Shown here piece by piece: positions 2,530-36,028 of a DNA stretch of 37,164 nucleotides. Both the position numbers and the translations under genes were made by a program. Origin of the DNA: a virus. The first letter of the stretch is position 1. Each line of letters starts with the position of its first letter. The notes beneath the pieces were generated by a model, which did no database searches, had not been told where the DNA came from, and saw only the letters and a program-made list of their open reading frames with translations. The stretch spans positions 1 to 37,164 of IMG/VR virus record IMGVR_UViG_3300036820_000051; one strand, 5' to 3'.

Positions 2530-3324
2530 TTATTCTTCCTCACTTAGTTGATAAAAAGGTATGTACTGTTTTATAGATTCAAAATTCATTTCAATTTCCA
2601 TGGGCATATTGAATCTGTTTTTGCTTATATGAGCGTCTGAAACGCCGCTTAAAATAATCCTGTCATCAGTGCTGGAAATGAGATTCCTCCCTGATTCCGT
2701 CTGATTAACAAAAGACTTTAGTCTGCAAAAAAATACTGCATCCACATCATCAATATATACTTCACGACTTTTTTCGTGATTCATGACGATTGAGTAACGG
2801 TCGTAATCATCAAGATCGGGCGCTTTGTATTTTGTGGTTGTTAGATGAGCAATATAAATAACTGTAATACCTTTTTTCTGGAAATTATCTAATAAGCTTT
2901 TAGCATAACGATGCTCTTGTTGAGCAGCTTGAAAACCAGCGCCATACCCGCCGCAAGCTGAATTGAGTGAAGGTGGCTTTCCATTTTTTGTAAGAGTTTC
3001 CTTTTGTAAAATGTCATTAACAATGAGCTGATCCAGTTTTGAAATACTGTCAATGATTAATGTTTTAAACGGAGGGTTCTCAATTTCCAATAACTTGGCG
3101 ATACCTTCTAAAAATTTATCGTAGGACTTAATAACACCGATATAATCAACATTATCAACACAACACTCCTCTGTCAGAAAAAACAGAGGAGATGGAAATT
3201 GACTGGCCAATGTTGATTTGCCAATGCCCGGAACACCGTATATCGTAATTCTTGGCGCAACGGGGCCTGATTTTTTTATAAAATTTAAAATATTATTCGG
3301 TTCTTTTTGTTTTCTATTTTGCAT
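2530..3324 (-). CDS. Sak4-like RecA-fold ATPase (annealing recombinase)
   Basis: A 264-aa single-domain RecA-like ATPase. Walker A is GVPGIGKST (residues 30-38), the Walker B strand is KTLIIDSIS (87-95), and a sensor-like strand is VIYIAHL (about 155-161). Size, single-domain layout and the adjacent ssDNA-binding protein match the Sak4 family of Rad51/RecA-related single-strand annealing proteins. The ATG overlaps the stop of the upstream coiled-coil gene by one base. An alternative reading is a generic phage nucleotide-binding protein (AAA_24-type), a common annotation for the same family. Confidence 0.82.
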   Translation of the reverse strand: MQNRKQKEPNNILNFIKKSGPVAPRITIYGVPGIGKSTLASQFPSPLFFLTEECCVDNVDYIGVIKSYDKFLEGIAKLLEIENPPFKTLIIDSISKLDQLIVNDILQKETLTKNGKPPSLNSACGGYGAGFQAAQQEHRYAKSLLDNFQKKGITVIYIAHLTTTKYKAPDLDDYDRYSIVMNHEKSREVYIDDVDAVFFCRLKSFVNQTESGRNLISSTDDRIILSGVSDAHISKNRFNMPMEIEMNFESIKQYIPFYQLSEEE

Positions 3325-5220: not shown

Positions 5221-5385
5221 ATGGAAATTGATTTACATTCAAAAGCTATTAATCTTCTGGAAAATATTGCTAATTCTGTCCATGAGCGAGAGCCAAATAA
5301 TCCGAATATATTATGTTTTACGAAGAATGAAGTAGAAGTAGTGGAGCAATGGTTGGCAAATTTTATCCACATACATCTGAAATGA
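5221..5385 (+). CDS. Small hypothetical protein (54 aa)
   Basis: The ATG at 5221 is preceded by GAAGGAG at ideal distance, and an intrinsic terminator begins three bases after the stop, so this short gene is well delimited. The product is acidic and amphipathic (MEIDLHSKAINLLENIANS ... EVEVVEQWLANFIHIHLK). Function not recognised. A perfect DnaA box (5363-5371) lies inside its 3' end. Confidence 0.65.
   Translation: MEIDLHSKAINLLENIANSVHEREPNNPNILCFTKNEVEVVEQWLANFIHIHLK
5363..5371 (+). promoter_or_regulatory. DnaA box (outlying)
   Basis: TTATCCACA is a perfect match to the E. coli DnaA box consensus. A second perfect copy lies 773 bases downstream at 6136 next to the iterons. One such 9-mer could occur by chance in a genome of this size, so by itself this copy is weak evidence. 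Confidence 0.4.
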
Positions 5386-5630: not shown

Positions 5631-5660
5631 TTATAACATGCAAGGTGCATTATAACATGC
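5631..5660 (+). repeat. Tandem 11-bp direct repeat upstream of the initiator promoter
   Basis: TTATAACATGC occurs at 5631-5641 and 5650-5660, a 19-base period with further similarity in the flanks (GCAAGG/GCCAAG). Position upstream of the -10 element at 5729 fits an operator or activator site. It does not match the 17-bp Cro-type operators. Confidence 0.45.
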
Positions 5661-5704
5661 CAAGATTAAAAGAAAACCCCAATATCTCTCCTTTCCTCTC
5701 GCAA

Positions 5705-5734: not shown

Positions 5735-5782
5735 CGCAATCCCCTTAAAGGAATTAAGGGTTTTAACTAGGAGACGGATTTT

Positions 5783-6463
5783 ATGTCACATCAAGTACGC
5801 AAATTGCATAACCCGAAATCACATGCCCCAGCCGTTTATATTCCATGTTGGTTAATTCAAGTTTCCTCCACATTACTATCCTATGCCGCCAAAATTGTTT
5901 ATGGGCGACTATCTCAGTGGAGTACAACGAAATGTACGGTGCATAGAAGTCTTGACCAGCTTAGCCAAGAAATAGGTATGAATAGACGCTCGCTTGAACG
6001 AATCCTTAAAGAGCTTAGAAATGTGGATTTGATTGGCACTTATCAAGCCGAAGCCGGTGGCGTTAATCACTACCAATTTTATGACCACCCGTGGATGCAC
6101 GCGCCAATAAATGAACATCTTGTCTACCATGAAAGTTATCCACAGGCACATCCCGCAAAAGTTGTACCCCCCCGCGAATCTGCGGATACCCCCCCCGCAA
6201 CTTTGCGGGTACCTACCCGCGAATCTGCGGAACCTAAAATAAGAGAAATAAAAGTAAATAATAATAAAAGCTTTTGCGCTGACGCTTCAAAAAAGCCCAA
6301 AAGCGACTGGAAGGCAGAGAACGCCAAAGTGCATTCCTTTGCAGAAAGCAAAAACCAAATGGCGAACGAAGCCAAGCACATTGAAGAACACGAAGCAATC
6401 AAACGAGCGCCCATGCCAGAGAGTTTGAGGTCTCTCGTTAAAAATATAAGTCGTAGGTGCTAG
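5783..6463 (+). CDS. Winged-HTH replication initiator-like protein
   Basis: A 226-aa protein. Residues about 15-110 form a winged helix-turn-helix (LSYAAKIVYGRLSQW ... SLDQLSQEIGMNRRSLERILKELRNVDLIGTY) as in phage O-type and plasmid initiators. A Pro/Arg-rich linker (about 118-150) is encoded by the iteron repeats, and the tail is charged and helical (about 165-226). As in lambda O, the candidate origin lies inside the gene between the DNA-binding and C-terminal parts. It would bind the iterons and recruit the host DnaB system. A clear lambda P-like loader is not seen, though the next gene overlaps in position. ATG 5783 follows TAGGAGACGG. Confidence 0.75.
   Translation: MSHQVRKLHNPKSHAPAVYIPCWLIQVSSTLLSYAAKIVYGRLSQWSTTKCTVHRSLDQLSQEIGMNRRSLERILKELRNVDLIGTYQAEAGGVNHYQFYDHPWMHAPINEHLVYHESYPQAHPAKVVPPRESADTPPATLRVPTRESAEPKIREIKVNNNKSFCADASKKPKSDWKAENAKVHSFAESKNQMANEAKHIEEHEAIKRAPMPESLRSLVKNISRRC
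6136..6275 (+). other. Candidate replication origin inside the initiator gene
   Basis: In order: a perfect DnaA box TTATCCACA (6136-6144); a partial repeat CCCGCAA (6152-6158); three palindromic iterons with cores CCCGCGAATCTGCGGA (6171-6186), CCCGCAACTTTGCGGG (6194-6209) and CCCGCGAATCTGCGGA (6216-6231), spaced 22-23 bases, each preceded by TACC-type C-rich DNA; then a strongly A+T-rich segment (about 6232-6275) suitable for unwinding. This DnaA box, iteron and AT-rich order within an O-like gene matches the lambda origin plan and many iteron plasmids. Confidence 0.72.
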
Positions 6464-6465
6464 CT

Positions 6466-6711
6466 ATGAGTCAACCAAGGACGGTTGAAGAATGCAAAAA
6501 GACTTTGATCAAACTCGCCATACGGCACGGCGTACCTCCGAAGCTTATTTCTGAGAGGCTCTTGAGTCAGAACGACAAAGACGATATGTTAAGCGGGCTT
6601 ATTCCAGCAGACACGCTGGATTGTTACGTCAGAGTGTGGAAGCAATACGGAATGTGCAACTACGCAGACGGCACAGGCGCTTGGTACAGCGATTTTAAAC
6701 TTTACCAATAG
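6466..6711 (+). CDS. Small hypothetical protein downstream of initiator (81 aa)
   Basis: Function not recognised. The helical N-terminal part (TVEECKKTLIKLAIRHGVPPKLISERLLSQNDKDDML) leads into an aromatic C-terminus (CYVRVWKQYGMCNYADGTGAWYSDF). I prefer ATG 6466, just after the initiator stop and behind TAGGTG, over the GTG at 6457. By position it is where lambda has its helicase loader P, but it is far too short and shows no such motif, so I make no such call. Confidence 0.65.
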   Translation: MSQPRTVEECKKTLIKLAIRHGVPPKLISERLLSQNDKDDMLSGLIPADTLDCYVRVWKQYGMCNYADGTGAWYSDFKLYQ

Positions 6712-6792: not shown

Positions 6793-6993
6793 ATGCAGAA
6801 AGGAACAGTAAAATGGTTCAATGATGGTAAAGGTTTTGGTTTCATTGCCTCTGAGGGCAGTGATTATTTTGTTCATTTTAAAGAAATCCAGAGTGAAGGG
6901 TTCAAAAGCCTCAAAGAGGGTGACAGGGTTACCTTTGAGCGCGGTGATTCACCCAAAGGCCCTGTTGCAAAAAATGTTCAAATCGAAAGGTAA
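6793..6993 (+). CDS. Cold-shock-domain protein (CspA family)
   Basis: A 66-aa, full-length single cold-shock domain: KGTVKWFND at the N-terminus, RNP1 KGFGFI (about residues 13-18) and RNP2-like DYFVHF (about 24-29). The family binds single-stranded RNA and DNA and melts RNA structure. RNP2 has Tyr where cellular proteins usually have Val. An 80-base leader with GTAAGGATACGG before the ATG precedes it. Phage copies are uncommon but known. It may help early translation or act as an antiterminator, as cellular Csp proteins do. Confidence 0.93.
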
Positions 6994-34273: not shown

Positions 34274-34281
34274 TTATAGGC
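34265..34281 (-). terminator. Hairpin at the helicase stop codon
   Basis: GCCTAT (34265-34270) and ATAGGC (34276-34281) pair around a 5-base A+T loop that contains the helicase stop. On the minus strand it is followed by only three Us, so it is a weak terminator. Readthrough would transcribe the structured region downstream. Confidence 0.5.
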
Positions 34282-36028
34282 ATTCTACGTCTACTTGTAT
34301 AGCCTTCTCAGGGTAAACAAAATGTTTTTTAACTACTTTGAGAGTCCCATTTTCCAGTTCGATACATTCAATTTGACTTGGTGAATATAATTCTTTTTCT
34401 TCAATAACATTTTTCAAATATATAAAATTTTGTAATCTGGAATAGGCGTCATGAGGATTTATAAAATGTTTTTTAACAAAATAATGATAGAAAAAACGAA
34501 TTGCTTTATCTGTGCTTAATAAAAATTTCTCACCAGCGTATTTCAAACCATTATAGTTAGGAATGGTATATAAGACATGAAATAGTGGTGATCCGTTATT
34601 CATGGACAGGATATATTCTGTTTGATCAACAGGAAAAACCACTCTGTTTCTTTTTGAAGCAGAATTTTGTAAATTACGATTAGGGTCGATTAATTCTGTA
34701 TGGCATGACCTGCACTGCCGTGAAACAATATCATTTTTTGTTCCACATTCTGGACAATCTTTCCACTCAAACCAATGGTCACAGCGTTTATTGTCCTTGG
34801 TTCCGATGCATCTACGCGACATTAACGTATTCATTGAATTACATTCAAAGCATTCAATGCAATATTCGGGGTCGTTCGGGTCTTTTGGTTGAATGGCTTT
34901 ATTGATAACAGGGTTATCGATATCCCCGTGTCGGTCAAGATTGCCAGCATAATCCAGAATTAGACAATCTGTTTTACCATCTGACAGGCGCAACCCTCGA
35001 CCCAAGCACTGCATATACAATACAAGCGATTCTGTGGGGCGTACGAACACGATTGTATCAAAGGAGGGTACATCTACCCCTGTACATAGAACATTGACGT
35101 TAACCAGGTATTTGATGATTCCAGCACGTGCTTGTGTAATGTAAAGCTCTCGCATTTTGTCTAACGTGTCACCAGTAATAATCGCGGTTTCCTCTCGCGG
35201 TAACCATTCTGCGCATTCGTGACAATGCTTTATGCTGGATGCAAAGATAAATGCGCCTTTGCGATCTTTAACAATCTCAGCGACTTCCGCCATGATTTTA
35301 CCAGTAAGACGCGGCTGTTTCTGTACAGCGTTATCAAGATCAACAGAATTAAACTTTCCCATTGAATTAATTTTTAATTCGTTGAAATCATACTGAAGTG
35401 TCTTTTCGCAGTAACCCCATATTGGTGGAGTTAAATAAGTATTTTCAATTAGCCAATCAGCCGTAATTGCGCATACTTCTTCTTGAAAAAATAGTTTATC
35501 ACCAACGATTGTATGGCCTTTGCCGCGATAAGGCGTTCCAGTTAAACCTACGAAACGAAGTTTATGGCCGAGCGTTTGCGCGTATATACCATAATGATTG
35601 AATATGCGCATGTACGTCGTTCCTTTATCATTAAAGTTGATGTTGTGGCATTCATCAACAATGATAAGGTTAAACGGAATTTTTGAAAGTTTACCCTCTC
35701 TTTTAATACTTCCCCGAACTGACATAGGAGATGCAAAAATAATAGGTTCGGCAATATCTCTCATACCAAGTGATGCGCAAAAAATTCCTGCGTGTCCACC
35801 TTGTTGCTTATAAGTATCAGCGTTCTGACGAATCAGCGTGCTATTCATTGTAAGACAAAGCGCCCGCCATCCAGCACGCTCTACAAGAAGCAGTATTGAA
35901 GCTATACAGACTGATTTTCCAGCCCCGACCGACATATTAACTAATAAAGGATGATCAGTTTCTTTTAATCTTTTTTTTAAAATATCAACAACCTCTTGTT
36001 GATATGGGCGTAATATTTTAGCATTCAA
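34274..36028 (-). CDS. SF2 DEAD/DEAH-type helicase with zinc-ribbon insertion
   Basis: A 584-aa helicase: Q-like LRPYQQEVV, Walker A SVGAGKS (33-39), motif II DECH (125-128), motif III GLTGTPYRG (about 157-165) and motif VI QCLGRGLRLS. These match SSL2/RAD25-like phage helicases. A four-pair Cys region follows (about 385-450, CIECFEC, CPECGTKNDIVSRQCRSC), likely zinc ribbons, then a C-terminal domain of unknown fold. It belongs at the end of the leftward early operon and probably remodels recombination or replication intermediates. It overlaps the upstream HNH gene by 11 bases. Confidence 0.9.
   Translation of the reverse strand: MNAKILRPYQQEVVDILKKRLKETDHPLLVNMSVGAGKSVCIASILLLVERAGWRALCLTMNSTLIRQNADTYKQQGGHAGIFCASLGMRDIAEPIIFASPMSVRGSIKREGKLSKIPFNLIIVDECHNINFNDKGTTYMRIFNHYGIYAQTLGHKLRFVGLTGTPYRGKGHTIVGDKLFFQEEVCAITADWLIENTYLTPPIWGYCEKTLQYDFNELKINSMGKFNSVDLDNAVQKQPRLTGKIMAEVAEIVKDRKGAFIFASSIKHCHECAEWLPREETAIITGDTLDKMRELYITQARAGIIKYLVNVNVLCTGVDVPSFDTIVFVRPTESLVLYMQCLGRGLRLSDGKTDCLILDYAGNLDRHGDIDNPVINKAIQPKDPNDPEYCIECFECNSMNTLMSRRCIGTKDNKRCDHWFEWKDCPECGTKNDIVSRQCRSCHTELIDPNRNLQNSASKRNRVVFPVDQTEYILSMNNGSPLFHVLYTIPNYNGLKYAGEKFLLSTDKAIRFFYHYFVKKHFINPHDAYSRLQNFIYLKNVIEEKELYSPSQIECIELENGTLKVVKKHFVYPEKAIQVDVECL

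Follow-up and report, generated by a model that had tools for sequence, protein, structure and literature searches.

Background

Phage lambda is the long-known case of a replication origin that lies inside its own initiator gene. The lambda ori is made of dyad iterons in gene O, located between the DNA-binding and the helicase-recruiting parts of the protein (PMC6022878, PMC5043065; also PMC7466680). In RepA_N plasmids the origin is found in the middle of rep, where it encodes a dispensable linker (PMC5703833), and RepA_N replicons such as pSK41 and pTZ2162 carry semi-palindromic repeats and a host-specific C-terminal domain (PMC5703833, PMC7145576). A third arrangement is the pPR9-type chimeric initiator with an HTH_36 N-domain, in which the N-domain and the origin were exchanged as a block and the C-domain was retained (PMC5703833). 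The locus analyzed here, in a virus record of 37,164 bases (the window, i.e., the whole stretch of DNA analyzed), very probably has a comparable organization: an origin embedded in the initiator gene, iterons bound by initiator dimers, melting of an adjoining A+T-rich stretch and a C-terminal domain that recruits the helicase, with host DnaA probably assisting.

The phage genome and the initiator gene

Based on family matches, the window contained P22-type coat, portal and scaffold genes, and its coat protein had relatives in Vibrio, Shewanella and Thalassomonas phages at 26–28% identity. The host search returned 0 relatives in 84,980 species genomes (two scans), and no relative was detected by protein among plasmids and named phages at the limits used. 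Genes for a ResIII/DEAD helicase (34274–36028), an AAA_24 ATPase (2530–3324) and a YqaJ-type nuclease (1271–1924) were all found on the minus strand, and likely form a phage recombination and replication module. The features of the locus were as follows.

5783–6463, plus strand: initiator gene (226 aa), with a winged-helix N-terminal part, a disordered linker containing the origin DNA, and a short helical C-terminal domain
5819–6106, plus strand: N-terminal winged-helix DNA-binding domain (residues 13–108), pLDDT mostly >90
5984–6022, plus strand: recognition helix (residues 68–80), one of the domain's most variable segments and the one that tracks the iteron word
6136–6144, plus strand: perfect DnaA box TTATCCACA, extended form AGTTATCCACAGG
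6171–6186, plus strand: iteron 1, CCCGCGAATCTGCGGA, encoding part of PPRESA
6194–6209, plus strand: iteron 2, CCCGCAACTTTGCGGG, in a different frame, PPATLRV
6216–6231, plus strand: iteron 3, CCCGCGAATCTGCGGA, in the same frame as iteron 1, PTRESA
6236–6268, plus strand: A+T-rich candidate unwinding element, 91% A+T
6287–6460, plus strand: C-terminal domain of type S, common to relatives L007, L025, L026 and L085
6466–6711, plus strand: small gene directly 3′ of the initiator, kept in many relatives

The initiator gene was preceded by AGGAG at 5769–5773. Just 5′ of the gene, a tandem 19-bp pair (TTATAACATGCAAGGTGCA / TTATAACATGCCAAGATTA) at 5631–5668 is possibly a regulator site. Downstream, the small protein (6466–6711) and a cold-shock-like protein (6793–6993) trailed the initiator in many relatives, whichever C-domain type these had.

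The best family matches of the protein were phage replication initiators, i.e., phrog_270 (6e-7) and, weakly, the O-like phrog_345 (6.5e-5). An AlphaFold2 model made with the family alignment had a confident winged helix up to about residue 110, a low-confidence segment from about residue 111 to 175, and a short, helical C-domain. The coding part for the iterons and the A+T-rich stretch falls within the low-confidence segment, which is probably a disordered linker. Compared with solved structures, the model was closest to four RepA_N initiators (4pql, 4pt7, 5kbj, and 4pta), with Z scores of 9.3–10.4 over 95–105 residues, after which the scores dropped to 8.8. Among solved folds, the modeled structure most resembles the N-terminal domain of RepA_N initiators (RepA_N/DnaD fold). 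The sequence search against solved structures gave weak winged-helix matches only (4pta at E 0.1), and the RepA_N Pfam profile had no match to the window initiator up to E 1. PF13730 (HTH_36) scored 15.3 bits, below its cut-off of 25, which was passed by four relatives (L008, L013, L018, and L022).

Iterons and the A+T-rich stretch

The sequence-only reading had described a perfect DnaA box, three 16-bp dyads spaced at 22–23 bases with the outer two identical, and an A+T-rich stretch, and all of these elements were confirmed within the gene. The steps between iterons were 23 and 22 bases, and the middle copy is consequently read in another frame. The statement that the repeats encode the linker stands with one amendment: copies 1 and 3 do so in one frame, with similar peptides, and copy 2 in another, with a different peptide. 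The dyads of the window were imperfect, with 5, 7, and 5 of 8 pairs matched in copies 1, 2, and 3, respectively.

The three-copy score at the iterons (40 of 48) was the highest anywhere in the 37-kb window, and the best scores in 20 Markov-simulated windows ranged from 29 to 33, with none above 33. The similar peptides of the two outer, in-frame copies could suggest that the DNA repeats solely because the protein linker it encodes is itself repetitive and of low complexity. This idea was refuted, because no synonymous recoding of the peptide attained the repeat score: 400 recodings gave 27.0 ± 2.0 with a maximum of 32, and 0 of 400 reached 40. It is also at odds with the out-of-frame middle copy, with the covariation of the dyad arms described below, and with the three exact iteron copies that lie across frames in four relatives (L017, L022, L051, and L056), so that its probability is next to nil. 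As a positive control, the lambda O gene had a three-copy score of 38 compared to 27.7 for its recodings.

The A+T content of the candidate unwinding element was matched by 0.14% of stretches of equal length in the window. Across the family, ATA accounted for 65 of the 67 Ile codons in this stretch and for 116 of 369 in the remainder of these genes (Fisher p 5e-26, pooled codons). This codon bias indicates that the stretch is under selection as DNA.

Conservation of the array in relatives

The protein was shared by 25 viral loci, to which more were added by profile search, and 24 distinct members were scored. In 22 of these 24 the array scored above all 400 of the member's own synonymous recodings, with differing iteron words such as CCGACAAAAATGTCGG, CCGTCAAAAGTGACGG, CCGTATAAACATACGG, CCACCTACCCAGGTGG, and CGGCACGATCATGCCC, and two members (L012 and L024) had two clear iterons only. 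Most members had three copies at steps of 22 and 23, and this layout was conserved while the iteron word and the encoded peptide varied. Spacing in relatives had been proposed as a check, and this outcome contradicts the contrary possibility named with it, that of relatives keeping the protein linker without conserved nucleotide repeats. Together with the recoding results, the relatives strongly support the claim that the origin lies inside the initiator gene, the same DNA doubling as linker code and site array. GC skew, another proposed check, was uninformative, since it followed gene direction with no turn at 6.1 kb beyond that.

The arrays varied in a few members. L056 had a fourth iteron copy, 42 bases before the others and also inside the gene. 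In L028 (3343–3403), three 22-base repeats had only GTACCCCCCG in common and their words differed from copy to copy; this array may have decayed or be in the course of change.

Because the MAFFT alignment of the iteron words was out of register, base pairs were counted in the ungapped register. Among 18 distinct words, arm pairs 1–6 were Watson–Crick in 15–18 of 18, and the type of pair varied: pair 4, for example, was A-T in 4, C-G in 3, G-C in 2, and T-A in 7 words (shuffle p 0.0002). The arms thus showed compensatory changes at pairs 1–6 and the central four bases were free, suggesting that the iterons are read by a dimer. Short-loop palindromes of this kind could also pair in RNA, and the dyads might then be hairpins in the mRNA, acting in attenuation or antitermination. 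Only 5 of 32 arm mismatches were G-T, which favors a dyad at the DNA level over a hairpin in RNA, and word identity follows the recognition helix of the protein (see below); on these two grounds hairpins were rejected. Three evenly spaced copies in the same orientation, followed by an A+T-rich stretch, are moreover the layout of an origin, and RNA hairpins are most improbable.

The iteron word of the window occurred nowhere in the window except in this array, and in five other genomes (36–39 kb) the respective word was confined to the initiator gene; the variant word of L007 lay outside the pattern used in this genome-wide search. A general transcription operator was rejected on this confinement. 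More specifically, the protein could be a transcription regulator that acts on its own gene without binding an origin, the repeats being its operator. It does have a winged helix domain, and regulators commonly have sites near their own gene. The sites, however, lie 390–450 bp inside the gene, next to the codon-biased A+T-rich stretch, and are found nowhere else in the genomes checked; the profile matches are to replication initiators; lambda-P-like or DnaB genes are close by in the genomes of some relatives; and a promoter search near the array gave no site above chance. An autoregulatory operator is accordingly very unlikely.

Coevolution of the recognition helix and the iteron word

Variability in the stretch at the predicted recognition helix was roughly double that of the remaining N-domain (1.79 vs 0.86 bits). 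A partial Mantel test that controlled for the remainder of the domain gave a partial r of 0.56 between half-site distances of the iterons and distances in the recognition helix (p 0.0002). With a sliding window of 11 residues the correlation peaked at 0.60 over NRRSLERILKE and had a second, lower rise of 0.43 around residues 43–53; across most of the domain the values were close to zero. When near relatives were dropped it was still 0.51–0.61 (p 0.001 or less). Helices of the RVI(E/K)RG type went with GACA half-sites, ISS(I/V)ER with GTCA, and CESSVEKYQ with GTAT/GTAC. Helix and half-site do not correspond one to one, because the window and L024 have a common CCCGC half-site yet recognition helices that are only 36% identical. 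These comparative data indicate that the binding sites and the DNA-reading helix of the protein change together across relatives.

The DnaA box and the C-terminal domain types

The DnaA box of the window was located in the linker-coding part of the initiator gene. A second perfect box was found at 5363–5371, about 770 bases ahead of the first; base composition predicts about 0.4 perfect boxes for the two strands of 37 kb (our own estimate). Among relatives the box was present in some members only, on either strand, and before or after the iterons. The window C-domain type S was joined to other N-domains in L025, L026, and L085, all three with a perfect DnaA box in the linker. L026 had its own dyad array (GGTTGGAATCAACC, three copies, steps of 21 and 22). 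The different N-domain of L026 (phrog_11233 type; array at 1051–1140) was accompanied by its own dyad iterons within the gene, as was that of L092 (1345–1400), with the word GGTTGGAATCAACC. A second C-domain type, T (L004, L023, L034, L092, and L094), had a DnaA box as in type S, except for L094.

Overall, a perfect DnaA box was present in 9 of 10 members with C-types S and T, compared to 2 of 19 with others (Fisher p 5e-5), an association that was noticed before being tested and whose rows are not independent. Within one N-domain family the figures were 5 of 5 for S/T and 2 of 19 for other C-types (p 0.0005). The fresh test was confined to L085, L092, and L094, with 2 of 3 positive.

No match to PF03796, PF01695 or PF06992 was found in the S/T genomes searched. 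A lambda-P family gene (PF06992) was found in G007, G008 and, weakly and under the cut-off, G009, which have O-like C-domains; DnaB_C was found in G002, and the L051 genome had a DnaB-type helicase gene shortly after the initiator. The three genomes with a lambda-P family gene and that of L051 had no DnaA box in the initiator gene. A rule of loader versus box is nevertheless incomplete, because four genomes (G001, G003, G010, and G014) carried neither a box in the gene nor a recognized loader; a missing loader is not in itself predictive of a DnaA box.

With the origin as proposed, the box could still be incidental, a chance or hitch-hiking 9-mer, with DnaA unused. Most minus-strand boxes encode one peptide (VDN/VDK), and many relatives have no box. 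Nor does lambda, the model: there was no perfect box in lambda 37500–40500, so the claim that the elements, box included, follow the order of lambda ori was not supported, the box being optional and variable in relatives. On the other side, boxes occur on either strand, on either side of the iterons, and with different peptides (SYPQ in the window), and the extended AGTTATCCACAG form is often kept. Their density was also some 11-fold higher in the vicinity of iterons (8 boxes in 15.8 kb) than elsewhere (8 in 172.7 kb), and they track two C-domain types across N-domain types. We regard an incidental box as unlikely, although less so than the other alternatives.

Reciprocal swaps between the N-domain with its iterons and the C-domain were observed among family members, and the genes of this family appear to consist of two exchangeable halves. 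It is possible, and we put it forward tentatively, that these halves form a two-part cassette in which each protein half has a DNA site of its own in the one coding region: the iterons belong to the N-terminal reader and the DnaA box to C-types reliant on host DnaA in place of a phage helicase loader, a C-domain swap then being a swap of helicase recruitment.

Proposed mechanism

The embedded origin is strongly supported by four lines of evidence: the iteron words are selected and dyadic, they coevolve with the recognition helix, they are found at no other place in the genomes checked, and the A+T-rich stretch next to them is likewise under selection. Initiator dimers would bind the three dyad iterons via the N-terminal winged helix, as the coevolution suggests. 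From what is known of lambda O and of plasmids, dimers bound along the array may bend or strain the DNA and melt the adjoining A+T-rich stretch, after which the C-terminal domain would recruit the helicase. Host DnaA probably assists by delivering DnaB/DnaC, given that in this phage and others with its C-type no lambda-P, DnaC or DnaB family gene was detected and the linker contains a DnaA box; this is the least certain step. Sites placed inside the gene would keep reader and target together under recombination, which would give rise to lineage-specific iteron words and to the exchange of N-domain-plus-iterons and C-domain as blocks.

As far as the literature searched shows, two findings are new: the record of helix–word coevolution and the association of the DnaA box with C-domain type. 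This uncultured phage family offers some twenty natural variants of a reader and its target in one gene, so that the DNA-recognition rules for this type of initiator could be read from sequence. It is also suggested that phages can gain or lose reliance on host DnaA by exchanging one small domain along with a site of 12 bp, which offers a testable view of changes in their replication strategy.

Comparison with known systems

Like lambda ori, the array consists of dyad iterons 20–24 bp apart inside the initiator gene, with an A+T-rich stretch on the C-terminal side. Lambda has four iterons and the window three, and the window differs further in having a perfect DnaA box and no lambda-P family gene (PF06992). 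The kinship implied by calling the origin lambda-like was overstated, as no homology to lambda O was detectable: profile comparison of lambda O with the window initiator gave a probability of 0.1%, and Pfam O had no match up to E 1.

The RepA_N replicons (pSK41 and pTZ2162) share the N-terminal fold (Z about 10) and a linker-coding origin inside the gene, but are plasmids rather than phages, without a profile match and with a C-terminal domain that is unrelated as far as tested. The pPR9-type initiator resembles the family in the block exchange of N-domain plus origin and, for four relatives, in the PF13730 family; it belongs to a staphylococcal plasmid, however, and the window initiator is below the cut-off of that family.

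O-like initiators of Pseudomonas, Acinetobacter and Klebsiella phages and of EBPR podovirus 1 have C-domains common to some relatives, but other N-domains and iteron words, and a lambda-P or DnaB gene adjoins them where annotated. No three-copy array above recoding was found in the initiators of Lactobacillus CL1, Xanthomonas SAC, and PAJU2. Iteron arrays with steps of 22–24 bp were present in the linker of EBPR podovirus 1 gp48 (L077), Acinetobacter Highwayman (L080) and, weakly, Klebsiella RAH1 (L079), unannotated in their database records. The origin lacks detectable O homology and a P gene, and shares the RepA_N fold and layout without a profile match, but very probably works like lambda ori. 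Because named phages have arrays of like layout in O-like genes, the arrangement is widespread and its kind is known.
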